Made by a program: the position numbers and the translations under genes
Shown: positions 5,900 to 34,835 of the stretch, one piece after another
Numbering within the stretch: the stretch's first letter is position 1
How the letters are laid out: each line of letters starts with the position of its first letter
The notes under the pieces: generated by a model
The model's input: only the letters and a program-made list of their open reading frames with translations
Database searches by the model: none
Told to the model about the DNA's origin: nothing
NCBI RefSeq assembly: GCF_001688725.2
Contig: NZ_CP015401.2
Span: 1,116,001 to 1,180,000 of the forward strand
Origin: Bacteroides caecimuris
Lineage (GTDB): Bacteria > Bacteroidota > Bacteroidia > Bacteroidales > Bacteroidaceae
Length of the DNA stretch: 64,000 nt
Direction: 5' to 3'

Positions 5900-5960
5900 C
5901 GTCTTATTTGGCGATAAGGTACAACTTAGATTGATATAAACCATTTATAACGAGGAGAAT

Positions 5961-17333: not shown

Positions 17334-17687
17334 ATGGCTTATAAAGTAAATTCATTGGAGGAAATGCCGAATGCGTTGTCCTACCTGATTGAGTCCGTAG
17401 AAGCACTACAATCCAAAGTAAATGCCTTGCAACATAAGCAAGCAAGTAATTCACCCAAGTGGATGAATATAGACGAACTTTGTGCTTATCTGCCATCACA
17501 TCCAGCCAAACAGACAGTTTATGGATGGGTATCTACCAAACAGATTCCCGTACATAAAATAAATAAGGCTTTGGCTTTCTTGCAATCGGAAATTGATGAT
17601 TGGTTGAAGAACAAATCGCATAAGACACAGGATGACTTAATGGAAGAAGCTAGACGATTTGTCGAATCTAAAAAGATTATCAGATGA
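17334..17687 (+). CDS. Excisionase-like HTH protein of the mobilizable element
   Basis: A 117-residue protein: an N-terminal coiled-coil-like segment (ALSYLIESVEALQSKVNALQ) then an HTH_17-like domain (WMNIDELCAYLPSHPAKQTV, YGWVSTKQIPVHKINKALAF). Small HTH proteins at this place, between the integrase and the BT4734/VirE-N gene, are standard in Bacteroides mobilizable elements and act in excision or regulation. Its stop overlaps the next start by 4 bp. Confidence 0.8.
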   Translation: MAYKVNSLEEMPNALSYLIESVEALQSKVNALQHKQASNSPKWMNIDELCAYLPSHPAKQTVYGWVSTKQIPVHKINKALAFLQSEIDDWLKNKSHKTQDDLMEEARRFVESKKIIR

Positions 17688-18283
17688 TGGGAACAACAGA
17701 TTATTGCTTTTCGTTCTTTCGCAAGCCCATTCAAAACATCGAACCGATAAGGGCGGTAGGCATTGTGGATGTGTATCGCTATGTCATCGGGCATTATGCG
17801 CAACCACAAACCGAGTCTCTGCGTTCGATGCTATCTTCTCCCGAAGCCAAAAGATATAAAGCCACCCATTTCGACTATTGTACTTTTTCGGGATTATTCC
17901 GTAAACGGAATGAGAAGGAACTGATTATGCACTCTGGATTGATGTGTCTGGATTTTGACCATGTGGAGAATATCGTGGAGCTAAAACAGCAATTACTCAA
18001 TCATGAATATTTTGATACGGAACTATTATTTGTCAGTCCATCCGGTAATGGATTGAAGTGGATAATACCTGTAGACTTGAAAGGCTGGGAACATTCCCGA
18101 TATTTCAAGGCTGTTGCTAATTGTATCAAAGCAACAGGTTTGCCATCAGTGGATATGTCCGGCAGTGATGTGGCTCGTTCATGCTTTTTACCCCACGATC
18201 CACAAGCATATATTAACCCTAAATACAAAGATGATGTCGAAGAAAATATTTTCCGCCCAAGATTGGGAGAATGCCCCTTCTGA
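17684..18283 (+). CDS. BT4734-like / VirE N-terminal-domain protein
   Basis: A 199-residue protein with the conserved core of this domain: HFDYCTFSGLF, then LIMHSGLMCLDFDHVENI, LLFVSPSGNGLKWIIPVD and VDMSGSDVARSCFLPHDPQA. The domain resembles archaeo-eukaryotic primase-like folds and is encoded with DUF3987 ATPase proteins in Bacteroides mobile elements, probably for element replication. The frame ends 53 bp inside the start of the DUF3987 gene. Many relatives are a single fused protein, so either the genes truly overlap or one base has been gained or lost near 18240-18283. Confidence 0.75.
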   Translation: MMGTTDYCFSFFRKPIQNIEPIRAVGIVDVYRYVIGHYAQPQTESLRSMLSSPEAKRYKATHFDYCTFSGLFRKRNEKELIMHSGLMCLDFDHVENIVELKQQLLNHEYFDTELLFVSPSGNGLKWIIPVDLKGWEHSRYFKAVANCIKATGLPSVDMSGSDVARSCFLPHDPQAYINPKYKDDVEENIFRPRLGECPF

Positions 18284-20039
18284 AATACTGCAAACACATA
18301 CGCCTGATATTGATCCTATATATAATAAGGTAAAAGACGATGTAGAAAGTATTGTTCGGGAGATAGAACAACGTGGCATTGATATAGCACCCAATTATAA
18401 AGATTGGATGGAATTGGGCTTTGCACTTGTTGATGGATTGGGAGAGAACGGACGGGAGTATTATCACCGCATCAGCAGGTTTTACTCTACCTATCAAAAG
18501 GAAGAGACGGATAAACAATATACGCATTGTCTGCACTCCAAAGGGCAAGGCATTACTATCCGTTCTTTCTTCCATTTGGCAAATCAAGCCGGAATCTCAT
18601 TGGCTCCATCCAACAAAGAACATTTATCCATTTTGCCAAATATCCAAAATGGTAAAACGGGCAAATGGATAAAGTCAGAGGAAGAACTTCCTGCATTTCC
18701 TGAATGTGTGTTTGAGCATCTTCCTCCTTTTCTACATGAGATTGTCAACAATTCCATTTCGGTGGATGACCGTGATACGATATTGATAGGAACTATTGTG
18801 TGTTTGTCGGTATGCTTTCATAATGTTTGTGGTGTGTACGATGAGCGCATTGTTTTTCCGAATCTTTATCTGTTTGTTGTGGCAGATGCAGGTATGGGAA
18901 AGGGGGCGTTAACCCTATGCAGAGAACTGGTAGTACCCATTAACCGCAATTTGCATGAACTCTCAAAACGATTGGAACAGGAATATAAAGAAGCGATGAA
19001 TGCTTATATCAAAGGTAAGAAAGATAGTGGAATGACTATGCCAGCTGAGCCGCCCATGCGTATGCTTGTCATTCCTGCCAATAGCAGCGCAAGCTCTTTC
19101 TTGAAGATACTGGGAGATAATGACGGAATCGGACTGTTGTTTGAATCGGAGGGCGACACGTTAAGCCAAACATTGAAGTCGGACTATGGTAATTATTCCG
19201 ATGTGTTGCGAAAGGCATTTCATCATGAGTTGGTAAGTTTGAGCCGTCGCAAGGATAGGGAGTATTGTGAAGTAGCTAATCCAAGAGTGTCAGTAGCTTT
19301 GGCTGGAACTCCCGAACAAGTAAGAAGATTGATACCTGATGCGGAAAACGGATTGATGAGTCGCTTTTGTTTCTATATCATTCGCTTCAAGCGAGGTATA
19401 AGAAATGTGTTTGCCACAAGCGACATTTCCCAATCCAAGAATGCCAAGTTCAAACTATTGGGAGATAAATTCTGCCATCTGCATGAGGAATTTGTACGAC
19501 AGGGAAATTATTCATTCTCCCTTCCCTCCGATTTACAGGAACACTTTATAGAATACCTCAGTCGTGTGAATGAAGAGTGTTGTGACGAAGTGGATAACAA
19601 GATGCAAGGAGTAGTCAGACGGATGGGACTGATTGCTTATCATATAATGATGGTGCTGACAGCTGTCCGGCATTTGGAGAATGTACATCGCAATTCTTCC
19701 TCACATGACAAGACAGAGCAACTGGTCTGCCATGAGTATGACTATTCTACAGCCATGAATATTTGCGAAACCTTACTTTATCATGCCGTATTCATTTATC
19801 AGAATTTGTCAGGAAATCAGTCCAAACGATTCTATACCGCTTCGCAAGAGACTGGCGTTTATGCACGAAGGAATACCCTTTATAATATGTTACCCGATAC
19901 TTTCACAAAAAAGGATTATGATGCGGCGGTTTTAACTTTGGGTGAGAATGGAAGTACGGCAAACAAGTGGATAGAAGCCTTTATCAAAGATGGTAAGCTA
20001 TGCCGAATAGAGCAGGGGAAATATAGGAAGACTTTTTGA
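18231..20039 (+). CDS. DUF3987 helicase/primase-associated ATPase-like protein
   Basis: About 602 residues from the ATG at 18231 (MMSKKIFSAQDWENAPSEIL). It opens with a primase-C-like helical region (DWMELGFALVDGLGENGREY), then the DUF3987 core with a P-loop-like LFVVADAGMGKGALTLC, the segment IGLLFESEGDTLSQTLK (Walker B-like) and VSVALAGTPEQVRRLIPDAE. The open frame extends upstream to 18114, but that part lies inside the preceding gene and has no family character. It probably acts with the VirE-N protein in replication of the excised element. Confidence 0.78.
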   Translation: MMSKKIFSAQDWENAPSEILQTHTPDIDPIYNKVKDDVESIVREIEQRGIDIAPNYKDWMELGFALVDGLGENGREYYHRISRFYSTYQKEETDKQYTHCLHSKGQGITIRSFFHLANQAGISLAPSNKEHLSILPNIQNGKTGKWIKSEEELPAFPECVFEHLPPFLHEIVNNSISVDDRDTILIGTIVCLSVCFHNVCGVYDERIVFPNLYLFVVADAGMGKGALTLCRELVVPINRNLHELSKRLEQEYKEAMNAYIKGKKDSGMTMPAEPPMRMLVIPANSSASSFLKILGDNDGIGLLFESEGDTLSQTLKSDYGNYSDVLRKAFHHELVSLSRRKDREYCEVANPRVSVALAGTPEQVRRLIPDAENGLMSRFCFYIIRFKRGIRNVFATSDISQSKNAKFKLLGDKFCHLHEEFVRQGNYSFSLPSDLQEHFIEYLSRVNEECCDEVDNKMQGVVRRMGLIAYHIMMVLTAVRHLENVHRNSSSHDKTEQLVCHEYDYSTAMNICETLLYHAVFIYQNLSGNQSKRFYTASQETGVYARRNTLYNMLPDTFTKKDYDAAVLTLGENGSTANKWIEAFIKDGKLCRIEQGKYRKTF

Positions 20040-20140
20040 GTGGCAAGTTTGTGTTTTAGTGCCACTAAAACCTATGCGGCAAGCGGATAAACTGCCACTC
20101 TCAAAAAATCAATTCATGAACATTGAAAGTTAAGATAAAT

Positions 20141-20509
20141 ATGAAGGAGAAGAAACTTGGTGGTCGCCCTAAGTTGGCGAACTATCAGAAACGTACCAAA
20201 TGTTTTCGGGTAATGTTTACCGAGAACGACTACATTTATATCCAATCCAAAGCGGAACAGGCTGGGTTGTCTGTCAATGAATTTTGCCATCAGGCAGCAA
20301 TGGATTGTCAAGTCTGTCAGCGCATCAGCCCTGAAATGGTATCGGCTATTCGTGACCTTTCCGGTATCGCCAATAATGTCAATCAGATTGCCCATCAGAT
20401 GCACACTTATGGTTTGGAAGCAGTCAAACAACAATGCTTCTCAATCATATCAGAAGTCAGTAGAATTATCACTCAAGTAAAGAACAATAGCCATGATAGC
20501 GAAGATTAA
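20141..20509 (+). CDS. mobC: MobC-like relaxosome protein
   Basis: About 122 residues. The start at ATG 20141 (MKEKKLGGRPKL) is preferred over an upstream TTG. It has a basic N-terminus, a ribbon-helix-helix segment (CFRVMFTENDYIYIQSKAEQ, AGLSVNEFCHQAAM) and the MobC motif DLSGIANNVNQIAHQMHTYG. MobC proteins bind oriT and help the relaxase open the strands. The gene overlaps the relaxase start by 17 bp, in the arrangement normal for these elements. Confidence 0.88.
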   Translation: MKEKKLGGRPKLANYQKRTKCFRVMFTENDYIYIQSKAEQAGLSVNEFCHQAAMDCQVCQRISPEMVSAIRDLSGIANNVNQIAHQMHTYGLEAVKQQCFSIISEVSRIITQVKNNSHDSED

Positions 20510-21392
20510 AACAAGAGCGGATTTCGGAGGAATAGTGAATTATGCCAATGACCAAAAGAACAAGAAGAAATGTGCCATACTTTTAGCACACGAAGGTGTC
20601 TGTGTCATCAGTAATAAAACCATAGCTGATTCTTTTCAGATACAAGCGTCCATGCGCCCGAAAGTAAAAAGTCCGGTGAAACACGTATCACTTGCTTTCT
20701 CTTCGCAGGACATTAACCGTTTCCCCGATAACGAAGAAGGAGATGCGCTGATGGCAGAGATTGCCAAGAAATGGATGGAACAAATGGGGATTCGCAATAC
20801 TCAATATATCATAGCCCGACATCACGACACGAAACATCCTCATTGTCATTTGGTATTTAACCGGATAGACAATGATGGCAATCTCATTTCTGACAGCAAT
20901 GAAAGAATACACAATGCCAAAGTATGTCGAACTTTGACAAAAGAGTATGGACTATACTTTGCTCCTAAAAATAGTAAAACCCGAAACAAGAGCCGTTTGC
21001 GCCCTTATCAATTACGGAAGTATAATCTACGTTCTGCAACTCTTGATGCACTGACTGTATCTCGTTCATGGAATGATTTTCTTGGAATTCTCAAAGGTTT
21101 GGGTATAGATATGCGCTTTAATCGTACAGATAACTCTGATAAAATTCGTGGCATATCATTCTGTCAAAATGAATATAGTATAGCCGGTTCTAAACTTGAC
21201 CGTGATTTGAGTTTTAATAGCCTTTGTGCTACATTGGGTAATGTGGCAGCGGAACTGGTTGTTCAACCTCATCAAGCCATAACTCCCAGTGGAGGTGGAG
21301 GAGCAAGTAATGAACTGGGATGGCGAGACGACAAAGACAAGGATAACCAAAGAACCGAACCTTTTTATAAACCCTCAAAACGTAGAAGATAA
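20493..21392 (+). CDS. mobA: Relaxase / mobilization nuclease MobA
   Basis: A 299-residue MOB-family relaxase that nicks oriT and covalently leads the transferred strand. The nucleophile is likely Tyr17 (GGIVNYANDQ). The metal-binding histidine motif is ARHHDTKHPHCHLVFNRID (about residues 109-127). The C-terminus is short, glycine/basic-rich and without a helicase domain, as in mobilizable rather than self-transmissible elements. No type IV secretion genes are in the window, so transfer would need a helper conjugative element. Confidence 0.92.
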   Translation: MIAKIKTRADFGGIVNYANDQKNKKKCAILLAHEGVCVISNKTIADSFQIQASMRPKVKSPVKHVSLAFSSQDINRFPDNEEGDALMAEIAKKWMEQMGIRNTQYIIARHHDTKHPHCHLVFNRIDNDGNLISDSNERIHNAKVCRTLTKEYGLYFAPKNSKTRNKSRLRPYQLRKYNLRSATLDALTVSRSWNDFLGILKGLGIDMRFNRTDNSDKIRGISFCQNEYSIAGSKLDRDLSFNSLCATLGNVAAELVVQPHQAITPSGGGGASNELGWRDDKDKDNQRTEPFYKPSKRRR

Positions 21393-22045
21393 TGAAAGAA
21401 GATGTAGTAGCTGCAAATCTTGCAAATTTGCGCCAAAGTATCAACGAGCTAAAAGAGTGTATTGAAAAACAGAATACTACAATTCCCAAACCAGATCAGT
21501 CTGTAAAAATAGATTTTGACGAAAAGACCATTTATAATGGAGTCGCCAAAAGTTTCTGTACTTGTTGGAACGATGCGTTATCAGTGGTGAAGAAGCATAT
21601 CTGGAAGCAACAATCGGACACATTGCCGTTCTCGCTATGGTTTCCGAAGCTTATTGAATTATTCAAGCAGAAGTCCAAATTTCTTGAATATCTTTATCGG
21701 CATGTTTGCGATTATAATCTTAATCGTATGACTATTGAAGCAAATACCGAAAGCATATTAAAACGGCAGGATGAGATATTTGCCAAAATCAATGAGTTGA
21801 AAAATCCAGTAACGGTTATTCCACCCAATATCAATGGGATGTTTATACGGGGCTATCATATAAAACTTCGATATGTCGTAGTGTTTGTTGTCATTATTGT
21901 TACGTGGGCTGTTGTAGCATCGGTTAGTAGCATGAAGCATCGAGAAGAAGCCTTTGCGTATTATTCGATGTATCGGGCGGTGAAAGAACAGCATCAGTGC
22001 TTGATGGAAAAAACAGGAATAGAACTAAAAAGAAATACGGAATAG
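21392..22045 (+). CDS. Membrane-anchored protein downstream of the relaxase
   Basis: A 217-residue protein whose start overlaps the relaxase stop by 1 bp. The N-terminus is a predicted coiled coil (LANLRQSINELKECIEKQNT). One transmembrane segment lies near residue 160 (YVVVFVVIIVTWAVVASVSS). No enzyme motif was seen. Proteins of this shape commonly follow mobA in Bacteroides mobilizable elements and may link the relaxosome to the membrane; that is inference. It is the last gene before the converging cargo operon. Confidence 0.65.
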   Translation: MKEDVVAANLANLRQSINELKECIEKQNTTIPKPDQSVKIDFDEKTIYNGVAKSFCTCWNDALSVVKKHIWKQQSDTLPFSLWFPKLIELFKQKSKFLEYLYRHVCDYNLNRMTIEANTESILKRQDEIFAKINELKNPVTVIPPNINGMFIRGYHIKLRYVVVFVVIIVTWAVVASVSSMKHREEAFAYYSMYRAVKEQHQCLMEKTGIELKRNTE

Positions 22046-22072: not shown

Positions 22073-22591
22073 TTATTGTTGCTTATTTCTTCCATAAGTC
22101 ACTTCTGGTTCTGCCGCCACAAGTGTACTGTCTGTATCAGATAACTCGTATGTCTTGATTTTCCTATCTTCAAGAAAAATATGATTCAATGTATAAGCTA
22201 ACGACTCAAGTGTTTGTATCCGGACTTTTGGCTTTAGTTGGCACTCCCAAATCGTGATACAATGCCAGCCCATAGCAGCAAGCTGGCATTGTTCTTTTTT
22301 ATCTCGTTCCTTATTCCTTTTTATCTTGTTTGACCAAAAATCTATGTTGGTTTTAGGTAAACGGAAATATTTGCAGTTTTCATGACCATGCCAGAAACAA
22401 CCGTTCACAAAGATGACAGTGCGATATTTGCGAAGCACCAAATCGGGATGACCGGGAAGGTGCGGATGATTTAGCCGATAGCGGAAGCCACGGCTAAAAA
22501 GGAACTTTCTCACCAGTATTTCAGGTTTTGTGTTCCTTCCTTTTATAGCGGACATACAACGATGGCGTTGTTCTTTAGTTAATTTATCCAT
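22073..22591 (-). CDS. vsr: Vsr very-short-patch repair endonuclease
   Basis: A 172-residue T:G mismatch endonuclease that nicks 5' of the mismatched T arising from deaminated 5-methylcytosine. The family start DKLTKEQRHRCMSAIKGRNT is present, with the catalytic PGHPDLVLRKYRTVIFVNGC (Asp) and CFWHGHENCKYF (catalytic and zinc-binding His/Cys), then WECQLK. Vsr genes accompany 5-methylcytosine methyltransferases; here the methyltransferase is five genes upstream in the same operon. The gene is 76 bp from the Avs-like gene, a longer gap than others in the operon. Relative to E. coli Vsr it has an extra C-terminal tail. Confidence 0.93.
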   Translation of the reverse strand: MDKLTKEQRHRCMSAIKGRNTKPEILVRKFLFSRGFRYRLNHPHLPGHPDLVLRKYRTVIFVNGCFWHGHENCKYFRLPKTNIDFWSNKIKRNKERDKKEQCQLAAMGWHCITIWECQLKPKVRIQTLESLAYTLNHIFLEDRKIKTYELSDTDSTLVAAEPEVTYGRNKQQ

Positions 22592-22667
22592 ATTTGTAAG
22601 GTGTATTCATAGATGAATAGACTTATTAGATTCTTGCAAAGCCATAAAAACAAAAGATGCATAGTCG

Positions 22668-25600
22668 CTATCTCTCATGGGACGTTCTCATACATCCTGT
22701 TACTTTGCCTTCCTCATCCAATGTATAAGTACCACTCACTACAAGCCACATAGGAAGATTAGGTATATTATTATAACTATGTAACCCTATGATGTTTTTT
22801 TCACCAAGTACATACCACAATATTTTCTTGTGATGCGTTTTGAGATAATCCAATAGGGCATCCTTCCGGACTAAAAGATAGTTTTTTGACTTCTCTACGA
22901 CTCCTGCATCGAAACAAATCACCTTGCCTTTTTCATTTAAGAATACCCCTTCCTCGTCTGCATATTGCATCCTAAGACCATCAAATAACTGTTTTGAAGG
23001 CATGAGACAGTAAAAGGATGTGTCTTTAGAATGGTCTTCTTCTGCCTCCCACAAATAACCGATTGTGGTTATCTCTACATGAGCTATGAACCGATTCGTT
23101 TTCTTGTCATATATGTCCCTCTTGGTAAGCCCTTTAATATCAAAATGTTTGTATGCTGGTGACCAGTAATATTCACGATAAAACAATTCGTATTTATCAG
23201 AGTGTTCGGGCATCCATCTCCCACCAAAATTTTGTTTTGAAGCCCATTCACAAACGAGAGGGAACTCATCCTCGTCAATGATGCAGCTTCTTACTTGATA
23301 CCATAGGCTTTTGTATATGCAATCTTTGCCATGTGGTTCATTCCATTCTGGATAACATTCCAATGCAAGCCAATCGCATCCATCAGCATCTGTCAATTCT
23401 ATAATTGGCTCGGCTGCTGGAATATCATCCTTTATATTAAGCCAATCAGGCATTTCATGCTCCCAGTTAGCATATTTCCCTCCATACCACCAGAAATCTT
23501 CTTTGAGGTCTGAATTTTGACGATTCTCATTTACTCTAACAAGAGTTGTTGGATCAATATCACGAACGGTTGGTTCCCAAGTTCCCTCATATTCTACGAC
23601 ATTATCACTCCATGAATATTCTAATTTTTCGAAATTATCTGCTACACGAGCTAACAATTCATGTAAGGCCAGCCACTGATATTTCTTGCCAATTCGTTCA
23701 TTTGGTATGGTTGAGCGTCCTCTTCCAGATCCAATTTTTTGGTCGAATGTACCATGCTTGTCTTCTCGGTATCCATGCTTGTCAATAATGAGTTTTATGG
23801 CTACGTTACTCAGGCGTTCTGCATCAATTTTCCAGTTGCTCAATGCACTTTGAAATGTATATCTTCCAAAATCTCCATAAAGGCCTATGGCTGAATGTTC
23901 TGTAAACATGGAAATAAGCATGTTACACATACCCGGAGGATTCTTGTATTCCCCGCATTCGTCTAATATAGACTTTATTTCCTCATCAGATACATAGGTA
24001 TAATCAAAAGAGCTATTATATGGCGGTCGTATTTTATTAATATCAATATTCAGTTTTTCTCCTATAAAAATAGCATATTCTATAACATTCCGTGCATAGT
24101 CACGCAGCAAGATGTGAGGGTAAACCTCACCCTCAACATTAAATACTGACGAATAAATGTATTGGCACAAACTGGCCAAATATTCTTTTGATTTTGACCT
24201 CACGGCGCAGCCTAATGCTACACCATAAAGTCTTTCATGAATATATGGATCATCTACTTTTGAGAACTTTTCCAAAAGTGGTATAAGTACCTGCATCCTA
24301 TTATGCAGAAGTTGTACGAGGGCTTTTGTCGCTGTATCGCGTAGTTGTCGATTGGTACTTGCCAAAAACCAAGAAAGTAAAGTAGCTCCCAACTCAGCAG
24401 ACTCTTCATCCATATTGACCTTATCGCTTTCATCCCATGCCCAGTTAATAATATCTTTTATTATTTCATCCTGATTGCTATAAATCCGATATAATGTAGG
24501 TGTCCACATGGCATCCCTGTCAGCTAACCGCATTGGTTCCAGCATTTTGTGAAGATAATCGGCATTATAATAGTTTCCCGGATTAAATGCAACCTCTATA
24601 ACGGTTCGAATAAAACGGTCTCTGAATTGTTCATTACTTACAAATTCTGCAAAATATGTGTCGAGATGTGAGTCTATTGTTCTTTCCTCTCTCCATATTA
24701 AACTAGAAAGAACTGCATTTATAATGGCTTTATTACTATGGAAATTAGGTAATGAATCATATAATTCTATCCCCTTACATTCTGGCAATAAAATTGCCAG
24801 TGATTCCAATAATCCACCAACTACATAAGGAGATTTTATCGTTAGTACATATTCCTCTATAGCTTTATCGTCAAATTGTAATTTATCTATTAGATATTCT
24901 GCTTGAAGAAAATTTTCAAATCGTTCATATGTGAAATATATGCACTCCTCGTACTTGCCAACCGTATTATAAAAAACATTTTTGCTGAAAACACCTTCAG
25001 ATATCAAACAGTCCAATAATTCACCTTCTGTAAACACACGGGGATAAATATCGGAAAAGTTTTCTATAGCAGTGTCTATTGGCATTTCATGCCTTCCTTC
25101 TTTAGCTGTGAATTCTATGTACTTACGGACAGCCTTATCTACACACTTGATTAATGGGGAATAATGTTTGGCTTTCCTGAGAGATTTTTCAATACCATCG
25201 AAAAACAAATTCATTATTGATGTTATACCTTTCACACCATCCGGTATCTTTTTATAACCATTGTTCTTCATTCCTTCACAGAACAAATGTAAAAATAGTG
25301 GATTTTTAAATTCGGGATTGAGGAGTGGAACAGAAGGATACAATATATCGTATTCCTTAAAATATAGTTGTACGGCTTTTTGTGTATTAGTCCCAAATCC
25401 ATAATGTCTTGCCCACACACAATAATCATTTCCAAATTCTTCCCATGGAAGTATTGCAGGGGTATATGATGTACGAATGCTCAAAACGAGTCCAAGCCAC
25501 GGATGTTGTCGAATCCTATCAATAAAACTATGGATATTACTTTGCCAAATAGCCAGCCCGTGTCCCTCATTTATTGCATCTATGAAAATGATGATGCGAT

Positions 25601-26798
25601 GTCCGGTTGATTCTGCCTTGGCTTCAAGCGTTTCTAATAACTCCTCCGAAGAACTGCTGAAGCTAAGCATTCTCATTATCTGAGTGAAAGGTTCTTCATC
25701 AGTAACAAATTTCTGCCCTAAAAAAAATAGACTAAACAGGTTCTCTTTTTGTCTTCTTTGAACAGTATCAGCCATCAAATGCGACTTACCGACTCCAGCA
25801 TCCCCTTCAAGTATTAAAATAGGGTCATTTACTAGCCTCATTATATCTTGATGCAAATCGTTGTGAACGCGCAAAATATTTATACCTAGTTCAAATATGT
25901 TACTTGATGTTCTGTTTTCTTCTTCTGTTACACTTTCTTTTTCAACAATACTGTTGGCAATATCTTGAACAGTTTCTCCCAATAACATCAATGCTGACAA
26001 TAATTCATTAAGAGGTATATTATCTATACCGTTGATATTAATTTCCTTTATTTGTTTAATCGCATTGCGGACACTTTCTACTAAATTAATAATATCTTGA
26101 CAGTACTTATCTTTCTCTATTTTTCTACATGTATCTTCTGCTATTATCAGCTCCTTATCAAAAAAATGTCTCAGTGAACTTCCTCGTGAAAGAACCTCGA
26201 AATATTGAACGGGTTCAACTTCAATATTCAGTTTAGGTGTATATCGTTTACCTAAATCTTTTATTGAACCTGCATTAAATCGCATCATATCTTCATCTGA
26301 AAATTCGTGCTTTCCAAACCAAAATCGAAGTAGACCTTGATTAGAGGACTTTTGAAGTCTTTCTATTAAGTCTGATGCCCACCAAAAATCAAAAGTTACA
26401 TGAGAATTTATCTTTGACCATCTTTCCACATATCCATCAATTCGATCTTTCATACTCATTCTACCTGCGACATGAGCATCGGAGGGATCTGTGGGTACTG
26501 CTATGACATATCGTCTCAAATTGGGATGGGAATCGAGTGCCTCTTTTACAGACCTATCTATTTGTTGATACTGTGAATCATCAAAAGCCTTACAAAAATA
26601 TTTAGCTTGCCAAGCCACAATACTTCCATCTTCAAGAGTCCAGTAACATTCCACCCCTCCATCTGGCTTACCTTTGTGTACAAATGTCTTTGTACATGGA
26701 ATTTCCTCTCTACGTGCCAACTGGCACACAAATTCTTCAAACCCTTCATTTGCAGACCCGTTTATGGATCTAATATTATTGAAATCAATATTCAGCAT
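22668..26798 (-). CDS. Avs4-like STAND NTPase with N-terminal Mrr-like nuclease domain
   Basis: A protein of about 1376 residues. The start at ATG 26798 is preferred over an upstream GTG because an AGGAG lies 8 nt before it and overlaps the GTG. The N-terminal 170 residues form a PD-(D/E)XK domain of the Mrr type: GKPDGGVECYW (D46, E50) and the QxK of IVAWQAKYF (Q64, K66). A P-loop NTPase follows (Walker A GDAGVGKSHL at 332-341, Walker B IIIFIDAINE near 402-411), then a long helical C-terminus without recognisable repeats, as expected of a sensor. This architecture, length and N-terminal signature match Avs4 (AVAST type 4), where phage portal protein binding triggers DNA cleavage. The assignment is by architecture and remembered motif similarity. 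Confidence 0.75.
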   Translation of the reverse strand: MLNIDFNNIRSINGSANEGFEEFVCQLARREEIPCTKTFVHKGKPDGGVECYWTLEDGSIVAWQAKYFCKAFDDSQYQQIDRSVKEALDSHPNLRRYVIAVPTDPSDAHVAGRMSMKDRIDGYVERWSKINSHVTFDFWWASDLIERLQKSSNQGLLRFWFGKHEFSDEDMMRFNAGSIKDLGKRYTPKLNIEVEPVQYFEVLSRGSSLRHFFDKELIIAEDTCRKIEKDKYCQDIINLVESVRNAIKQIKEININGIDNIPLNELLSALMLLGETVQDIANSIVEKESVTEEENRTSSNIFELGINILRVHNDLHQDIMRLVNDPILILEGDAGVGKSHLMADTVQRRQKENLFSLFFLGQKFVTDEEPFTQIMRMLSFSSSSEELLETLEAKAESTGHRIIIFIDAINEGHGLAIWQSNIHSFIDRIRQHPWLGLVLSIRTSYTPAILPWEEFGNDYCVWARHYGFGTNTQKAVQLYFKEYDILYPSVPLLNPEFKNPLFLHLFCEGMKNNGYKKIPDGVKGITSIMNLFFDGIEKSLRKAKHYSPLIKCVDKAVRKYIEFTAKEGRHEMPIDTAIENFSDIYPRVFTEGELLDCLISEGVFSKNVFYNTVGKYEECIYFTYERFENFLQAEYLIDKLQFDDKAIEEYVLTIKSPYVVGGLLESLAILLPECKGIELYDSLPNFHSNKAIINAVLSSLIWREERTIDSHLDTYFAEFVSNEQFRDRFIRTVIEVAFNPGNYYNADYLHKMLEPMRLADRDAMWTPTLYRIYSNQDEIIKDIINWAWDESDKVNMDEESAELGATLLSWFLASTNRQLRDTATKALVQLLHNRMQVLIPLLEKFSKVDDPYIHERLYGVALGCAVRSKSKEYLASLCQYIYSSVFNVEGEVYPHILLRDYARNVIEYAIFIGEKLNIDINKIRPPYNSSFDYTYVSDEEIKSILDECGEYKNPPGMCNMLISMFTEHSAIGLYGDFGRYTFQSALSNWKIDAERLSNVAIKLIIDKHGYREDKHGTFDQKIGSGRGRSTIPNERIGKKYQWLALHELLARVADNFEKLEYSWSDNVVEYEGTWEPTVRDIDPTTLVRVNENRQNSDLKEDFWWYGGKYANWEHEMPDWLNIKDDIPAAEPIIELTDADGCDWLALECYPEWNEPHGKDCIYKSLWYQVRSCIIDEDEFPLVCEWASKQNFGGRWMPEHSDKYELFYREYYWSPAYKHFDIKGLTKRDIYDKKTNRFIAHVEITTIGYLWEAEEDHSKDTSFYCLMPSKQLFDGLRMQYADEEGVFLNEKGKVICFDAGVVEKSKNYLLVRKDALLDYLKTHHKKILWYVLGEKNIIGLHSYNNIPNLPMWLVVSGTYTLDEEGKVTGCMRTSHER

Positions 26799-26838
26799 AA
26801 ATACCACTCCTATACAGCTCTTTTTTCACTTATGTGCA

Positions 26839-29082
26839 TTATTCTTTCTCTCTCATGCGCTCATGCTTATTCCCCTGCACAATACCTTTATCCATCATAA
26901 CTATTTGGTACAACTCCTCAAAAGTAGTATCAATAAACGTATAGTTTATCATCTTGCTTGTATTGATTGGTTGAATGTTGGCATATTGTTTACGGAAGTA
27001 GCGCAGTTCAAAGGCGAGACGAAGGTCGTTGCTATTTTCTTCTCCATCGGTTTGCTTCACTTCCTTTGATGTGATAGTTCTAACTCTAATTATCTCGTAG
27101 ACATCACATATCCCTTCTCCTTTGAAGTAGGGCATGAAGTAATGTAGATTTTGCAGAGCAATAGTAGTTGGGAAATGACTACCTGTGTAATAGAGTGTGG
27201 CATTACCATCCTTGAAACTTTGCAAATAGCCTTTACGGCTGCTGTTTGTAACAAGACCTATGAGTACACGGTTTCCTACTTCTACGAATGTTCCCTTTTG
27301 CGGTATCACTTTAGAGATTGTCTCATGTGATTTTGTGGTGATAAGTTGTTCAACAAACTGCTCCAATAGCTGGCGATTATGTTGGTCTTTAGGACGAAGT
27401 GGGAATGCACCGATGTTCACTTCGTCTATAGTCTTACGGAACTTCGATACAGCAACATCTGTTGGATTACCATCTCCAGGAAATAATATATAACCACCTA
27501 TCACTTCTTTTTTTAAAGTATTCGATTGATAGTCTTTATAATAGATGGCATCGCGATATCTGTGCATCTGGTTGATCGCATCTTCGGGTGGAACATCTAC
27601 TCCATTTTTATCCTTTCCATCAATACGATATTTCGCATCAAACAGATAAGTCATTTTCATTCCTTCTTGCAAATCGTTCTTGGTCAGTTGCAGGACAATA
27701 TCCGGCTTTTGTGGCACTGTGCGCACCACAAGATCTTTCATTCCAATGTCACTATTCCCCTTGTCTGTGTTCTTTGGATTATAGACTAATTCAGCCAGTT
27801 CCACATTGTCTTTCTTGAAAAGGATACGGGAATGTTCTCCTTTGCCCAAATCCCACGTGAACAGGCCATTCATTTCCATACGGTTTTTATGGTCTATATC
27901 TTCATCAGACAAATGAAGTTTTTCCTTCACAATATGGCTCACTTCTATGAAACACCATATCTCGTAGAGTGTCGCTATATCTTTGGTTTGCAAACGGTAT
28001 ATGCCATCATTCAGAGAATAGGAGCGGCGAAGCAGGCTCCATGTGCGATATACCTGACTATATCCGGTAGCTTTTTGCAGAACCAGACTTTCCTGATTCA
28101 TTCCTTTGTAATTTCCTACTGTACGGAAGAAGGGATTTCGCTGCAAGTGTTTCAATGTAGCCAATGTGGCTTGCATGTCATCCTTCATCACATCCGAAGC
28201 ATTCTTTACCGCTTCTATGCGCTTCTTCAAGACTGCGTATTTATCCGTAATTTGTCCAAGAGCGAATTTCAAGAACCTGTTTTCCTGCGTGTCATTTGTT
28301 CGGACGCGTTCTTCTACACGATATAAGTGAGAGCTGTCCTGTCTGTGTTCTGCCAATTCGTTTTCTATGCAGGAGGGGACAAATGTCAGCTTATCGGCAC
28401 GTTTGTAAGTCTCTTTTCCGTGTAACCGATGTCTTGGGCGGTCAATGATGTTTTTGCAGGCCTTGATGAATTTCTTTTGCTCATTGGCAAATACGCTCCA
28501 CCAGATTATTTCCGGGGTCTCTCCGCTTGCATCGGGCGAAAAGCCATGAAAGGTTCTTCGCATATAGTCGAGCGAAAGCATTCTGTACTCTTGTTCAATA
28601 TCCTCTATAATGGCTTTCCAATGCTCGTGATAGTTGAGCTTTGTGCTCAACACTTCAAAAGAGAAGACAAAACTGCGGGTTTCTGCTCCCACTTGATACA
28701 TGAGTTGTATTTCGCTGCGACCAACCTCATTGCCATAATTCAAGAAACCTGCCAATATCTGTCTGCGAAAAGTGAATTTTTCATTTTCACTCTGGAGAGT
28801 GGAGCCAAACTTAGCCTTTTTCACATAGTTCTTGAATTCCACCCAAATAGGATAATCGGTGTTGTCGAAAAATATGGCAGGAGCTTGTTGGCTGTTTTCA
28901 ATCGTAATTTCTTCTCCAATATGGTTGCTCAGGATAACAGATGATACGCCTTCTGACCAAGAATAAGTGGAGTGTAAGCATTCTTCTCCAATATTACTCT
29001 TGGCTTTATACCAAATGTCATCGAATTTTGCGCATTCGACAATCATTTCAAAATCCTGATGCTTTATGGTGAGCAGTTCCAT
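26839..29082 (-). CDS. DUF2357 / PD-(D/E)XK nuclease, McrC-like partner of McrB
   Basis: About 747 residues from ATG 29082 (a TTG four codons upstream is an alternative). The N-terminal and middle parts match DUF2357-type proteins (DRPRHRLHGKETYKRADKLT, NDTQENRFLKFAL). A restriction-type nuclease core follows at about residues 460-490: KPDIVLQL and YLFDAKYRIDG (D-x-K), then INQMHRYRDAIYY. Such proteins are the nuclease subunits beside McrB-type GTPases, as in McrBC-like and BsuMI/LlaI-type restriction systems. It is 31 bp upstream of the Avs-like gene and directly downstream of mcrB. Confidence 0.82.
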   Translation of the reverse strand: MELLTIKHQDFEMIVECAKFDDIWYKAKSNIGEECLHSTYSWSEGVSSVILSNHIGEEITIENSQQAPAIFFDNTDYPIWVEFKNYVKKAKFGSTLQSENEKFTFRRQILAGFLNYGNEVGRSEIQLMYQVGAETRSFVFSFEVLSTKLNYHEHWKAIIEDIEQEYRMLSLDYMRRTFHGFSPDASGETPEIIWWSVFANEQKKFIKACKNIIDRPRHRLHGKETYKRADKLTFVPSCIENELAEHRQDSSHLYRVEERVRTNDTQENRFLKFALGQITDKYAVLKKRIEAVKNASDVMKDDMQATLATLKHLQRNPFFRTVGNYKGMNQESLVLQKATGYSQVYRTWSLLRRSYSLNDGIYRLQTKDIATLYEIWCFIEVSHIVKEKLHLSDEDIDHKNRMEMNGLFTWDLGKGEHSRILFKKDNVELAELVYNPKNTDKGNSDIGMKDLVVRTVPQKPDIVLQLTKNDLQEGMKMTYLFDAKYRIDGKDKNGVDVPPEDAINQMHRYRDAIYYKDYQSNTLKKEVIGGYILFPGDGNPTDVAVSKFRKTIDEVNIGAFPLRPKDQHNRQLLEQFVEQLITTKSHETISKVIPQKGTFVEVGNRVLIGLVTNSSRKGYLQSFKDGNATLYYTGSHFPTTIALQNLHYFMPYFKGEGICDVYEIIRVRTITSKEVKQTDGEENSNDLRLAFELRYFRKQYANIQPINTSKMINYTFIDTTFEELYQIVMMDKGIVQGNKHERMREKE

Positions 29083-29108
29083 TGTCCTTTGCAAATATCT
29101 GATTGTTT

Positions 29109-30956
29109 TTAGCTCCAGAAACTTGTATAGCCGGATGACAACCGTTCTTGCATTTCTTTCAACTTGGCTATGGAAACGGATTCTATTTTCTTATCTTCTC
29201 CGGTCAATGCCAACAACTGCGCTTCGATAGTAGTAATCAGTCTTTCAAGAAGTGAATGCTTGACTTTTGTATCATCACCTTCTATTCGTGACAAGATTTT
29301 CATGCTTGTTATCTCATCCAATGCGGTTGCTATGACCTCATCTTCACTGAACTCGTGTCCGTTTTCATCCATATTGTAAGGCAAATTGTTTACCACATAA
29401 AGCAGGAATTCGTTTCGCGTGCGGTAGGCAACTTTGAACGGAGTGCCGTTAAGGACATCATTCACAGCTTGCAAATAGGTCAATACCTTATTACAAACAT
29501 CCTCGTTATCTGCATATACATCCACACCTTCTACAGCTGTACCGATAAGCATATCGCTATTCAGCTTACCAATACGTTCATATTTGCTGTCCAATCCGGC
29601 ATACAAATCCACTTCATTCATTTCTATAGTCATGGCACGGTCAAGTACCTTACGGGAAAAAGAGAAGGTTGTTTCATCCATATTTACCGTACCCACTACG
29701 ATTAGATTCTGTGGAATGGTGATACCCTCTTCCAAAAAGCGGTTCCTTAATGTTTCATTGTTTCCTGTCAGCTCGGCTGTCAATACCCGATACCAATCCT
29801 CTGTGCTTTTTTTCAGGATAGGGTCTGTTGCAATCGTACCGTCTTCGTTGCTTTTACGAGATTCTATCACACTAAGAAATTCCGCAAAATATTGTTCGAC
29901 AGGAGCAAGATTCATTTCATCCAGACAAAGGAAATGAGGTACATCCAAGTTTTCCCAAGCCTTTGTGATAAATCTTAAGAAATCACCAATCACATATATA
30001 GGGCTTCCGCTGACACGGCTCACATATCCCATGAGTTCAGTGGAATCATGCCAATTGGGTTTTACCTGAATCATCTCAAAATTCTTAGGTTTCTGAGCTT
30101 TATATTCAGTGGAATCTTCGTCCCAACACGCACGGGCCAATTCACGGACAATACGGCTTTTGCCCGTACCGGATATACCGGCAAGCAAAAGGAAGGGTTT
30201 AGTCTTTATAGCCATGATAATGTCTATATAGTGATAGTATTGGAAATCTGTACGTTTTTTGTCTTTAGTGTCAAATATTCTATAAATTTCTTTTGGAGAA
30301 ATCTTAGTTTCCTCCTGTGATAAACTCAATCTTCCATACTTTGCTATATATTCCGTAAAATCAGAATCTGATGGTAAAAACTCATTTAATAAACTAGTGG
30401 AGTAGCTTATGGCTAAACAATTCTTGATTTCTGATCTGTTTATTTCAGAAATGCTAAATTTATATTTTCTGCATAACCATATTGCAAGAGCGATTCTGCA
30501 CTCTTTGTTTTTTATATATTTCTTTATATTCTTGTAGAGAGTCTCATTTATGGATAAAACTCCATTTTGTACGTTAAATAATGCAGCATCTTTCGTCCTA
30601 CGTGGGAAATCATGTAAAACTACAGGATTTGCAATAGACTCTTTTACTACATTTACGGAGAAGAAATTGCTTCCGACTTTATAATCTTTTTCGTCTTTTA
30701 TATCAGTGAAAAAGTTCGATGTATAACAAGACCCATCTATACTTACAACATCTCCTACATAATTAATAAATAACTCTCTGTCTTCTTTTTCCTTTGTATC
30801 GCAATTTTTATTGGTTTTTAAAACAAAATGGTCTAATGCGAATAAATACCTGATGGCACTTATAAATTGGGTGGCACCTTGACTTGAAGGGCTGTCTGTA
30901 TTGTGTGACAGTATTTTATATGCTGTCAATAGGGATTTTTTATCAATATAAGCCAT
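29109..30956 (-). CDS. mcrB: McrB-type AAA+ GTPase
   Basis: A 615-residue protein. The first 240 residues have no recognised domain and probably recognise DNA. The AAA+ motor follows: Walker A LAGISGTGKSRIVREL (260-267 core), the conserved PNWHDSTELMGY, Walker B HFLCLDEMNLAPVEQYFAEF, and the McrB GTP signature region VGTVNMDETT followed by RKVLDRAMTIE. It is predicted to hydrolyse GTP to translocate DNA and activate the downstream DUF2357 nuclease. It is 5 bp from the methyltransferase gene. Because a cognate methyltransferase is present, it may restrict DNA lacking the self methylation rather than methylated DNA; this is inference. Confidence 0.88.
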   Translation of the reverse strand: MAYIDKKSLLTAYKILSHNTDSPSSQGATQFISAIRYLFALDHFVLKTNKNCDTKEKEDRELFINYVGDVVSIDGSCYTSNFFTDIKDEKDYKVGSNFFSVNVVKESIANPVVLHDFPRRTKDAALFNVQNGVLSINETLYKNIKKYIKNKECRIALAIWLCRKYKFSISEINRSEIKNCLAISYSTSLLNEFLPSDSDFTEYIAKYGRLSLSQEETKISPKEIYRIFDTKDKKRTDFQYYHYIDIIMAIKTKPFLLLAGISGTGKSRIVRELARACWDEDSTEYKAQKPKNFEMIQVKPNWHDSTELMGYVSRVSGSPIYVIGDFLRFITKAWENLDVPHFLCLDEMNLAPVEQYFAEFLSVIESRKSNEDGTIATDPILKKSTEDWYRVLTAELTGNNETLRNRFLEEGITIPQNLIVVGTVNMDETTFSFSRKVLDRAMTIEMNEVDLYAGLDSKYERIGKLNSDMLIGTAVEGVDVYADNEDVCNKVLTYLQAVNDVLNGTPFKVAYRTRNEFLLYVVNNLPYNMDENGHEFSEDEVIATALDEITSMKILSRIEGDDTKVKHSLLERLITTIEAQLLALTGEDKKIESVSIAKLKEMQERLSSGYTSFWS

Positions 30957-30961
30957 ATCTA

Positions 30962-32161
30962 TTATTCATTAATTGGGAGGAATCTTAACAAAGCGGTTGC
31001 TGTAATCCAGCCAAGTATTGGAGGAACGGCATTACCAATAACTTTATATCTAGCTGCTAAAGGTATTGCATTAAACAAGTAGTTATCAGGGAATGACTGA
31101 ATTCTTGCACATTCCCTAACAGAATACCGTCTATTTTCAATGGGGTGAGTAATTCCACATTTGTCAGGTTGCGCAGAAGCTGTAATTGTACCGCAAATTT
31201 CTCCAAAAGCAAATCGTCTAAAAAATTTTGGAGCATGATAACGTTTAGGGTTATCATAGATATTCCTAAATCGTGGAGTCAACATTTCGTAGGGTATGTC
31301 TTTCCATGATTTTCCTTCCATACATATTGTAGGTAAATTCGTATGGGAATATCCGTCATAAAAATATTGGAATCCTTCAATGCCGTGAGCACAGCTTCCG
31401 ATTAAATTTACTGTTTGTTGTGTTCCTGGGCTAAATTCCCATACTTCATTATCAGGTAAGTTTTCTACACCTTGTAATATTCTTCCTAATACCAGTTCTT
31501 CGATGTTCCCATAATGTTCGGATGGGATATTGTTTTCTTGAACAATTGTTTTCAATAAGTTGAAATCAAAATGTCCAAGATTCAACTCTCTATCTATTCC
31601 AACCATTAGAACACGATAGCGTTTTTGGGGAACGCCGTAATCAGAAGCACAAACTAATTTGTATGAGACATCATAACCTAAATCGCCCATGATTCTAACG
31701 ATTTCTTCAGGTACACTATTGCCATTTGCTACATGTGAAGATAGAATGCCTCTAACATTCTCAAACAGAAATGCTTGAGGACGATGGCCAGCCTCAATCT
31801 TTGCAGCAATGATTCTATGACATTCTTCAAATAATGTACCTCTTCCGTTTTCATCATCCACTCCCTGTCTTTTGCCAGCATTAGAAAATGGTTGGCATGG
31901 GAAACCGGCTAAAAGTATATCAAAATCAGGTATATCATTAGCATCAATATCTCTAATATCAGCTAAAAGGCAATTGGCTCCATCATTTGTTAATAATGGG
32001 TTGGCATTATAACAAGACTGTGCGTCTTGGTCAAAATCATTTGCAAATACAATTTCTGTATCTAATCTCTCATAATCGTGTCCTCTGAATGCAAATCCTC
32101 CGCTAAATCCCAAATCAAGACCACCACATCCGGAAAACAAAGATACTATTGTCTTAGGCAT
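30962..32161 (-). CDS. DNA (cytosine-5) methyltransferase
   Basis: A 399-residue C5-methyltransferase with all conserved motifs in order: I (IVSLFSGCGGLDLGFSGG, SAM binding), IV (LLAGFPCQPFSNAGKR, catalytic Cys89), VI (FLFENVRGIL), VIII (YGVPQKRYRVLMVG), and IX-X (RECARIQSFPDNY, YKVIGNAVPP). The region about 240-340 between VIII and IX is the target recognition domain; the site recognised cannot be read from sequence. It lies 14 bp downstream of the XRE regulator and 5 bp upstream of mcrB, and is the natural partner of Vsr. Confidence 0.93.
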   Translation of the reverse strand: MPKTIVSLFSGCGGLDLGFSGGFAFRGHDYERLDTEIVFANDFDQDAQSCYNANPLLTNDGANCLLADIRDIDANDIPDFDILLAGFPCQPFSNAGKRQGVDDENGRGTLFEECHRIIAAKIEAGHRPQAFLFENVRGILSSHVANGNSVPEEIVRIMGDLGYDVSYKLVCASDYGVPQKRYRVLMVGIDRELNLGHFDFNLLKTIVQENNIPSEHYGNIEELVLGRILQGVENLPDNEVWEFSPGTQQTVNLIGSCAHGIEGFQYFYDGYSHTNLPTICMEGKSWKDIPYEMLTPRFRNIYDNPKRYHAPKFFRRFAFGEICGTITASAQPDKCGITHPIENRRYSVRECARIQSFPDNYLFNAIPLAARYKVIGNAVPPILGWITATALLRFLPINE

Positions 32162-32175
32162 TTGTACGTATTAAG

Positions 32176-32385
32176 TTAAATATTTTTTATTGACCACAAT
32201 AAGTCCTTAGTATCCACTTCAAGGACTTTTGCGATTTTCACTAATGTCTCCAAGTTCGGTTGCATGGTATTTGTGCACCATTTTGACACAGTTCCCGGAT
32301 CTTTTCCCAACTGTTCTGCCAACCATTTATTGGTGCGTTTCTTTTCTGCTAAAATCACCTTCAAACGATTTATATCTTTATTCAT
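32176..32385 (-). CDS. XRE-family regulator of the defence operon
   Basis: About 69 residues from ATG 32385 (MNKDINRLKVILAEKKRTNK). The open frame extends to a TTG at 32412, but that codon lies inside the -7 box. It is a single HTH_3 domain (WLAEQLGKDPGTVSKWCTNT, then LETLVKIAKVLEVD). Its size and position as first gene before the methyltransferase resemble C-proteins of restriction-modification systems, which time methylase and nuclease expression. Two symmetric AT-rich arms upstream are the likely operator. Confidence 0.85.
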   Translation of the reverse strand: MNKDINRLKVILAEKKRTNKWLAEQLGKDPGTVSKWCTNTMQPNLETLVKIAKVLEVDTKDLLWSIKNI

Positions 32386-32408
32386 ACGTTCTATGATATG
32401 TTTTGAAT

Positions 32409-32455
32409 GCAAAGGTAATCATTATAATCGAAAACTTATTCCAATTATAATGATT
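32409..32455 (-). promoter_or_regulatory. Promoter and symmetric operator of the defence operon
   Basis: The minus strand has a perfect -7 box TACCTTTG (32417-32410). Immediately upstream lie AATCATTATAAT (32417-32428) and its exact inverse ATTATAATGATT (32444-32455), 15 bp apart. Each arm contains the self-complementary octamer ATTATAAT, and the two octamers start 23 bp apart. The arms cover the -7 edge and the -33 zone, suiting autoregulation by the adjacent XRE protein. Confidence 0.65.
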
Positions 32456-32522
32456 TTCTGACAAATATATGTCGGAAAACTGCTTTATATTGAAATATAC
32501 TTCAATGTGTATATCGGAAAAC

Positions 32523-33233
32523 TCACTTGGATTGGTTCTCTTTTTCCCTTCTCTCTTTTACCTTTTCCAATCCTGGCATCTTTTTAGCCAATACACTTTC
32601 TCCTGCAGGAAAGTAAAGTGGAAAGACCTGAGATAAGAAACTTACAATATCACTACGCTTCTTGCCCATGTTGAAAAAAGTAGAACAAACAAAGTACATA
32701 ATATCTTGCTGACTACATGTATCTTTTAGCTGAATGGTTATTGAGGGTGTGATTATCAAACCGTGTTCTGCAAATGCGCAAGCACTGGCAAGAATAGCTT
32801 TCTGTTCTTCTTCGGTAAACATCTTTATTTTCCCAGCTAACCATTCAAGCTCTCTTTGCCGGAGTGCTTGTTGTTTTTCGTTTTGATGCTCCAATAGGAT
32901 TGCTACATTTTCTTGTTGCTTTTCTGTCAAGGCGTTTTCTAATGCTTGGTTCTTTCGTTTAAGAACGTTGAATTTTAGCAAAGCAGCAATGTACATACAG
33001 AAATATCCTACTGCAATATCGAATATTAGGACAAGCAGATAATTGTTACTTGAGTTTTGTATGCCACCAGCCATATATTCACTAATAGGGATAACAGCTA
33101 ATAGCATGATAATGGCTATTGCATAAAGCACTCGGTATCGCGTTTTATGGTTTACCTGTGGCAAAGAGGCAAACAAAAAGGCGATAATCAAAACGGCTAT
33201 GATTGCAAAGAATGGTATGAAAGAGGTCTCCAT
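32523..33233 (-). CDS. Membrane protein of unknown function coupled to the AlbA_2 regulator
   Basis: About 236 residues from ATG 33233 (METSFIPFFAIIAVLII), 16 bp after the stop of the upstream gene. Three predicted transmembrane segments occupy about residues 4-25, 33-52 and 65-88. A coiled coil follows (LENALTEKQQENVAILLEHQ) and then a soluble C-terminal domain that I do not recognise. Topology suggests a membrane-anchored sensor or effector. Linked to the AlbA_2/ATPase-like gene within the island; a role in defence is conceivable but not shown. Confidence 0.6.
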   Translation of the reverse strand: METSFIPFFAIIAVLIIAFLFASLPQVNHKTRYRVLYAIAIIMLLAVIPISEYMAGGIQNSSNNYLLVLIFDIAVGYFCMYIAALLKFNVLKRKNQALENALTEKQQENVAILLEHQNEKQQALRQRELEWLAGKIKMFTEEEQKAILASACAFAEHGLIITPSITIQLKDTCSQQDIMYFVCSTFFNMGKKRSDIVSFLSQVFPLYFPAGESVLAKKMPGLEKVKERREKENQSK

Positions 33234-34791: not shown

Positions 34792-34835
34792 CGTTTTCTT
34801 ATTGTTGTTTGGATATAACATCCCAATATCATACA

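Follow-up and report, generated by a model that had tools for sequence, protein, structure and literature searches.

Why does a gene for an anti-phage Avs protein stand among the genes of a restriction-modification operon, and is it a fixed part of that operon or exchangeable cargo? The question is raised by a 64,000 nt stretch of the Bacteroides caecimuris genome (NZ_CP015401.2, positions 1,116,001 to 1,180,000), here called the window, to which coordinates below refer. Six intact, uninterrupted open reading frames (ORFs) in the ORF list of the window follow each other on the minus strand and encode an XRE-type regulator, a C5-cytosine methyltransferase, an McrB-like AAA protein, a DUF2357 nuclease subunit, Avs2 and the mismatch endonuclease Vsr. 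A preliminary description of this DNA read them as one regulated composite defence unit. We favour, with a probability of about 0.75, the explanation that a LlaJI/PcaI-type (McrBC-like) operon serves as a chassis with two exchangeable segments, one for specificity and one for cargo. The gene content, the segment boundaries, the co-variation between the methyltransferase and the McrB N-terminus, and the variety of cargo are seen directly in the sequences.

The restriction core and its probable specificity segment

By sequence, the XRE, C5-methyltransferase, McrB-like, DUF2357 and Vsr genes form a LlaJI/PcaI-type (McrBC-like) restriction-modification operon. A resemblance of the methyltransferase/McrB/DUF2357/Vsr part to LlaJI-type systems had been noted before, and family matches, gene order and motifs all agree with it. 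The gaps between the six genes, from XRE to Vsr, are 14, 5, 14, 31 and 76 bp by the listed ORFs, and the third becomes 26 bp if DUF2357 starts at a conserved ATG at 29082; the single direction and the spacing of "26-31" given in the preliminary description are therefore real, the 26 coming from this ATG and the 31 lying before Avs2. The methyltransferase matches PF00145 at 1.2e-63. The McrB-like protein matches AAA_5 above the Pfam cut-off and has a Walker A motif GISGTGKS (260), DEMN (346) and an NxD-type NMD (425). Residues P464, D465, D486, A487 and K488 of the DUF2357 nuclease are invariant across six aligned sequences, and Vsr matches TIGR00632 with 150.2 bits (cut-off 97.85) and the solved E. 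coli enzyme 1cw0 at 3.1e-29. We rejected assignment to CoCoNuT, an McrBC subclass expected to have a long coiled-coil fusion, as no helix longer than 23 residues occurs in the model of McrB-like residues 1-247. The label "GTP-dependent" was dropped as unsupported: R1.LlaJI showed no intrinsic GTPase (PMC1459862), so GTP dependence is not to be assumed for the window.

Relatives of the DUF2357 gene were sought in named genomes, and the best 80 of 370 loci were kept (L049-L128). Edges of DNA homology with the window were read in 13 of these 80, mostly the closest ones, and in L175, which comes from a separate family sample (see below). On the XRE side, homology breaks at 32181-32183, adjoining the XRE stop codon, in seven of the eight relatives with an edge (L049, L052-L055, L057 and L110) and at 32201 in the eighth (L058). 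On the McrB side, the edge falls at 30200-30229, just ahead of the AAA part, in all eleven loci counted (L049, L050, L052-L059 and L110; the fragment L123 was left out). Homology is continuous across the whole segment in L051 and L175. The sharp edges on both sides suggest that the methyltransferase and McrB residues 1-247 are replaced as a block.

This block behaviour is also visible as co-variation. Fifty of 81 loci (the 80 and the window) were usable, with McrB complete, its domains cleanly cut and a methyltransferase called, giving 1225 pairs. Methyltransferases were at least 50% identical in 88/97 pairs with related McrB N-termini, compared with 17/1128 pairs without, and in 10,000 label shuffles this number averaged 8.4 and never exceeded 24, against the 88 observed. 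The pattern holds among pairs whose AAA parts are less than 75% identical, where methyltransferases match in 79 of 87 pairs with related N-termini and 15 of 1017 with unrelated ones. Conversely, of the 44 pairs whose AAA parts reach 80% identity or more, 38 lack N-terminal homology, and only one of these 38 has methyltransferases at least 50% identical. The co-variation is therefore not mere relatedness. Together with the known role of the corresponding LlaJI subunit, it leads us to infer that the McrB N-terminus sets a specificity matching that of the methyltransferase. Loci with two methyltransferases may recognise asymmetric sites, as LlaJI does, and the window, with one, a palindromic site like that of PcaI. 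A recurring 246-aa ORF lies between the methyltransferase and McrB genes in L061, L077, L098, L099, L103 and L117 and may be a separate recognition subunit.

The probable cargo slot and the place of Avs2

In 26 of the 80 loci, a co-directional Vsr gene comes next after DUF2357; it adjoins DUF2357 in 16 of them and is separated from it by a single gene in 10. The Vsr-side edge of homology lies at 22577-22592, the start of Vsr, in 7/7 loci with other cargo and a co-directional Vsr (L052-L055, L057, L058 and L175); L059, with an inverted Vsr and an edge at 22489, was left out of this count. The DUF2357-side edge is less sharp (26878-27071). The occupants are diverse. L049 has an Avs2 that is 97.6% identical to that of the window; L053, L054 and L055 have PDC-S46 (L053 scanned, at 763 bits; the other two typed by their 89% identity to it), and L175 has PDC-S71 (583 bits). 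L052 encodes a 1282-aa protein with sub-threshold STAND/AAA matches (a STAND-like ATPase), L057 a ResIII/DEAD helicase with a PbeA-like match of 5e-19, L058 a DUF2971 protein with a weak PDC-S31 match, L125 a protein with SLFN_AlbA_2 and HATPase_c_4, L070 a 209-aa FxLYD-domain protein, and L078 a 177-aa protein with a weak deoxyribosyltransferase match. In L123, cut by contig ends, a metallophosphoesterase and an nSTAND protein follow a partial DUF2357. L051 was rejected as a cargo comparison because, past its DUF2357, just 15 residues match the L052 cargo.

Genes are also inserted between McrB and DUF2357, where 20 of 74 loci have an ORF of at least 150 aa. Among the typed occupants are Fic, RhuM, YhcG (DUF1016), SLFN_AlbA_2 and KilA-N proteins, as well as two for which Pfam gave no match. 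In a more distant DUF2357 operon (31% identity; L033:7183-12222), 2 bp separate DUF2357 from the start of a GajA-like gene (PADLOC, 654.8 bits), which suggests that embedding reaches beyond close relatives. In L031 (6768-18999), HEF_HK and Response_reg_2 genes stand in front, SoFic lies between McrB and DUF2357, and an ICMT-like protein precedes Vsr.

The two segments appear to change independently of each other. L175 has a methyltransferase 94.7% and a full-length McrB 87.8% identical to those of the window, and PDC-S71 in place of Avs2; its DNA is common with the window at 26988-32792 and 22106-22591 and not over the Avs2 stretch between. L049, from Bacteroides fragilis S82, agrees with the window in Avs2 and in the flanking mobilisation genes but has two other methyltransferases and another McrB N-terminus. 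L053 shares its cargo family with L054 and L055 and differs from them in its specificity segment.

The preliminary description was borne out in taking the large gene for an Avs protein with an Mrr-type nuclease, as the Avs2 family matches and the nuclease-domain model agree. The protein matches the NCBIfam Avs2 equivalog NF041813 with 1177.7 bits (cut-off 1000) and six Avs2 models of PADLOC (best E 0), PDLC02162 over its length. Its STAND and C-terminal parts align with the solved Avs2 (AVAST type 2; PDB 9o4e, 3.9e-229), and the family match is to the whole protein. Walker A (GDAGVGKS) lies at 335 and FIDAI at 408. The label "Avs4-like nuclease" in the preliminary description did not hold for the protein: PADLOC, NCBIfam and PDB all give Avs2. 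The PDB does include the Avs4 entry 8dgf, yet no solved Avs4 chain matched at E <= 1e-3 and only the Avs2 structure did. The likeness to Avs4 is limited to the first 190 residues, whose predicted structure is an Avs4-like PD-(D/E)XK nuclease fold and in which E24/E25, D49, E53, Q67 and K69 are invariant in 28 sequences. The trigger for the nucleases of Avs1-4 is a phage protein such as terminase or portal (PMC12931631).

The rival reading takes the six genes for a dedicated machine, in which Avs functionally backs up DNA-level restriction and selection keeps the combination itself. By ORF labels, the 80 loci include 74 with an McrB-like gene, 59 with a methyltransferase like that of the window, 33 with Vsr and one with Avs2; tblastn finds XRE in 20 (L110 with a stop inside the match) and Vsr in 35. 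The XRE count by ORF labels, 10/80, is an undercount, partly since antisense ORFs displaced XRE. Ten of the 80 loci have XRE, methyltransferase, McrB, DUF2357 and Vsr in this order on the same strand; in a further 16 the order from methyltransferase to Vsr is kept and no XRE was found. These are lower bounds, as some loci stop at contig ends. The six-gene order with Avs2 occurs in one relative, L049, and this second instance is 94.6% identical to the window in DNA over 13.4 kb, flanking mobilisation genes included, which argues for recent shared descent and not for independent assembly.

Co-occurrence was counted in an order sample of 393 genomes (DUF2357 at E <= 1e-10, Avs2 at E <= 1e-20) and a family sample of 399 genomes (DUF2357 at E <= 1e-40), which overlap partly with each other and with the named loci (for example L029/L088 and L052/L173). 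DUF2357 was found in 23 and an Avs2 relative in 4 genomes of the order sample, and in 26 and 14 of the family sample; in both, the window's own genome was the only one with both. With that genome excluded, chance would give 0.2 shared genomes in the order and 0.8 in the family sample. The lack of further shared genomes is thus within chance and compatible with a dedicated machine; since the expectation is so low, the counts speak for rarity of the pairing and not for mutual avoidance. All 16 other Avs2-bearing genomes (13 family, 3 order) were without a DUF2357 gene at the thresholds used, though just three of the 16 reach at least 64% identity to the window's Avs2 (G450, G443 and a fragment in G544). 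Close relatives also lie elsewhere. L190 has a 64% identical Avs2 and no restriction gene in the readable part of the locus. In L189 (9780-18316), an unrelated operon again has Avs2 (72% identical) next to a methyltransferase: it lies behind genes for a D12 adenine methyltransferase, PDC-M62A (an AAA_15 ATPase) and a PDC-M62B-like protein. No restriction genes are listed near the three inspected of 58 Avs2 relatives on plasmids, for which the gene table is incomplete.

Six co-directional genes, short gaps and a conserved upstream promoter box speak for a dedicated machine. Unrelated genes in the same slot of other relatives, and the Avs2 genes found elsewhere, speak against it, and we regard it as unlikely. 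The exact six-gene set is rare, and what recurs, judging by sequence, is the chassis with its two exchangeable segments. The idea of a regulated composite unit survives in that a common promoter and regulator are probable; Avs2 itself is not a fixed member but exchangeable cargo, largely independent of the other genes in relatives. Likewise, the search for the same gene order, proposed earlier, recovered the five-gene core repeatedly and the version with Avs2 once. Avs2 has the marks of an embedded defence gene: it lies between DUF2357 and Vsr, and its relatives occur elsewhere without the operon.

Chance clustering in a loosely packed defence island, with the slot being meaningless, could also have brought Avs2 beside a restriction system. 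The island is rich in mobile elements, defence genes cluster generally (PMC12255303, PMC11411939), and the slot of some loci contains several ORFs or one on the opposite strand. Against such packing, the insert shares the direction of the operon and always sits between one particular pair of its genes, with flanks homologous to the edge in several relatives, and inserts between McrB and DUF2357 are co-directional in 20/20 loci; we consider this reading quite unlikely. Like PrrC in its type I host restriction system, the embedded protein could be a guard, restrained by the restriction complex or triggered by its failure. This would suit the position of Avs2 inside the operon and the effector NTPases and nucleases among the cargo families, but it is very improbable given the Avs2 relatives without a restriction system in 13 other family-sample and 3 other order-sample genomes and also on plasmids, and the activation of Avs1-4 by phage proteins (PMC12931631).

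Control region and genomic setting

The preliminary description proposed shared control of the operon, and the upstream region makes this probable. A candidate -7 box, TACCTTTG, lies at 32410-32417 and fits TAnnTTTG, which we take to be the Bacteroides-type -7 motif. This box stands upstream of XRE in the window and in 8/8 relatives examined; the motif is common in the window, with 79 matches against 60 expected. An inverted repeat with 17-nt arms (32417-32433 and 32439-32455, 88% complementary) is a candidate XRE operator. The XRE gene probably starts at ATG 32385 rather than TTG 32412, because the TTG is part of the conserved box, and in seven of eight relatives its reading frame differs from that of the next ATG. 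A single promoter and an autoregulating XRE protein likely drive the operon. Avs2 has the same direction as DUF2357 at a gap of 31-40 bp, and a TAnnTTTG match at 26919-26926 is a possible separate promoter.

Table 1. Positions of the operon genes, segments, control elements and context genes in the window
Feature	Position	Strand	Basis and remarks
XRE/Cro-type small helix-turn-helix (HTH) regulator	32176..32385	minus	HTH_26/HTH_3; start in ORF list TTG 32412 (ORF 32176-32412)
C5-cytosine methyltransferase	30962..32161	minus	PF00145; FSGCGG, PCQPFS, ENVRG and GNAVP motifs
McrB-like AAA protein	29109..30956	minus	AAA_5; variable N-terminal 247 residues, conserved AAA part
DUF2357 and PD-(D/E)XK (PDDEXK_7) nuclease subunit	26839..29094	minus	PF09823 and PF04411; likely start ATG 29082
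Avs2: N-terminal Mrr-type nuclease, STAND NTPase, C-terminal sensor	22668..26807	minus	PADLOC, NCBIfam, PDB; likely start ATG 26798
Vsr mismatch endonuclease	22073..22591	minus	PF03852, TIGR00632, PDB 1cw0
Specificity segment (methyltransferase and McrB residues 1-247)	30213..32180	minus	Block replacement in relatives
Cargo segment, approximate	22593..26886	minus	Replaced or absent in relatives; DUF2357-side edge varies
Candidate promoter and candidate XRE operator	32410..32455	minus	Bacteroides-type -7 box and inverted repeat; predicted function
Upstream leader with 9-nt palindrome (32489-32506, 89% complementary)	32456..32540	minus	
Flanking mobilisation/replication-type genes, convergent with the operon (context)	17684..22045	plus	MobA-/MobB-like below NCBIfam cut-offs; VirE/primase-like by eye; 217-aa protein
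dnaK (context)	3844..5757	plus	Named by eye

The flanking mobilisation/replication-type genes are common to the window, L049 and L057. L053 and L175 have the chassis beside dnaK, as the island of the window does; in these two, Vsr is near dnaK without intervening mobilisation genes. L058 has 119 bp around the dnaK end in common with the window. The region just past dnaK (3844-5984) looks like an insertion hotspot for the restriction chassis. A tyrosine integrase gene (6503-7657) seems to be interrupted, its C-terminal part (16606-17019, by eye) lying about 9 kb further on, past a nested element that has two recombinase-like genes (14089-15309 and 15325-16554, by eye) and a MobC-like gene; the DNA flanking this element is contiguous in L057. 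An IS110-family transposase gene (34973-36175) lies beside the island. Just upstream of the operon, a SLFN_AlbA_2/HATPase_c_4 gene (33250-34836) is wholly or largely kept in L049, L053, L055 and L058, and the same domain pair also occurs inside operon slots of L104, L125 and L128.

A proposed exchangeable chassis and known systems

In the explanation that we favour, the C5-methyltransferase would mark a site in host DNA; the McrB-like protein would read the same site, when unmethylated, through its N-terminal 247 residues and drive the AAA motor, and the DUF2357/PD-(D/E)XK subunit would cut the DNA. Vsr would repair T:G mismatches from 5-methylcytosine deamination at modified sites. Methyltransferase and McrB N-terminal domain would be replaced together as one specificity segment, and the DUF2357-Vsr segment would carry a self-sufficient anti-phage gene. 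Avs2, the present one, would be an independent second line that, should restriction fail, senses a phage protein and degrades DNA. Control of the entire operon probably lies with the small XRE protein, via one promoter with a palindromic operator.

Several observations weigh against this explanation. The rule of co-variation is broken by 17 pairs in one direction and 9 in the other. In L052 (7967-9987), XRE adjoins McrB and no methyltransferase match lies between them or elsewhere on the plus strand of the locus, despite McrB, DUF2357 and Vsr being close to those of the window; the segment is therefore not always a methyltransferase plus an McrB N-terminus. A methyltransferase ORF like that of the window is absent from 21/80 loci, in some through contig ends, and PDB matches of the modelled McrB N-terminus were not meaningful. 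Similarity of the McrB-like protein to solved E. coli McrB is weak (E 0.0036), and it is placed in the McrB group because gene order, partner and motif fit. For the slot, no co-directional Vsr comes next in 44 of the 80 loci, the contig ends first in 10, and Vsr is inverted in L059. Among 32 loci, an ORF of at least 150 aa between DUF2357 and Vsr is co-directional in 12 and on the opposite strand in 4. A strong match to a known or candidate defence family is found for 5 of the 11 occupants (L049, L053, L054, L055 and L175); in PADLOC, those of L052, L070 and L078 had no match and those of L057, L058 and L125 weak or partial ones. The best 80 of 370 loci include related genomes. Finally, every activity, the shared transcript and the movement of segments by recombination between conserved chassis genes are predictions from sequence.

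A further-reaching version, which we hold to be unlikely, is that the chassis acts as a docking platform. Fixed junctions at the stop of XRE, the edge of the McrB domain, the end of DUF2357 and the start of Vsr would allow independent exchange of specificity and effector among gut Bacteroidales, the addictive methyltransferase/nuclease pair would retain the docked effector, and the XRE circuit would restrain the effector until host DNA is methylated. Restriction addiction would then carry toxic sensors like Avs2 and stabilise them.

McrBC-like restriction-modification systems are widespread and scarcely studied. The locus shows that a restriction operon of gut bacteria can carry Avs2 embedded as cargo. 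In Bacteroidales, any gene in the DUF2357-Vsr or the McrB-DUF2357 interval is a candidate new defence gene, several occupants having no strong family match. In our searches of the open-access PMC literature, we found no description of Avs2 inside an McrBC-like operon or of a matched exchange of methyltransferase and McrB N-terminus. Other parts have precedents. Response_reg_2 genes near C5-methyltransferases and Vsr (PMC8011034), and Vsr with methylase genes in other restriction operons (PMC2292703), have been described, and the PDC candidates stem from a guilt-by-embedding approach (PMC12988326).

The closest known systems are PcaI and LlaJI. PcaI (PcaRCI) has three genes, recognises CCNGG, restricts unmethylated DNA and is mobile in the view of its authors (PMC8989522). 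By its description it resembles the window in having one Dcm-like methyltransferase, an McrB-like AAA protein whose N-terminus is unrelated, and a DUF2357 subunit that contains PD-(D/E)xK; unlike in the window, the word Vsr is absent from the paper's main text and its accessible text describes no embedded Avs gene. LlaJI of Lactococcus has methyltransferase genes followed by R1 and R2, the same order as in the window (PMC1459862). Its McrB-like R1, with a unique N-terminus, is the sole specificity subunit, R2 carries PD...D/EXK, and LlaI and BsuMI subunits are named as homologues. LlaJI differs from the window in its two methyltransferases and asymmetric site, and no cargo gene or Vsr is described in the accessible text of that paper. 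The AAA protein of the window also carries NMD, a motif of NxD type like that of the NxD branch of McrB-like GTPases, which is linked to methyltransferases and two-component genes (PMC11090510), and the relatives L029 and L031 carry Response_reg_2, L031 also HEF_HK genes. That paper centres on CoCoNuTs and its main text does not contain 'Avs', and the regulator of the window is XRE.

For the cargo, the nearest parallels are DarTG2, embedded with the repressor RptR in a restriction operon (PMC12255303), and TgvAB, embedded likewise (PMC11411939); both papers cite Payne et al. 2024 (preprint). As in the window, self-sufficient defence genes lie among restriction-modification genes, with a regulator at the front in the RptR case. 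These hosts are type I or Hma clusters, whereas the window has an McrBC-like host, a slot between nuclease and Vsr, and a second, exchanged specificity segment. Embedding of defence genes in restriction operons is thus already known.

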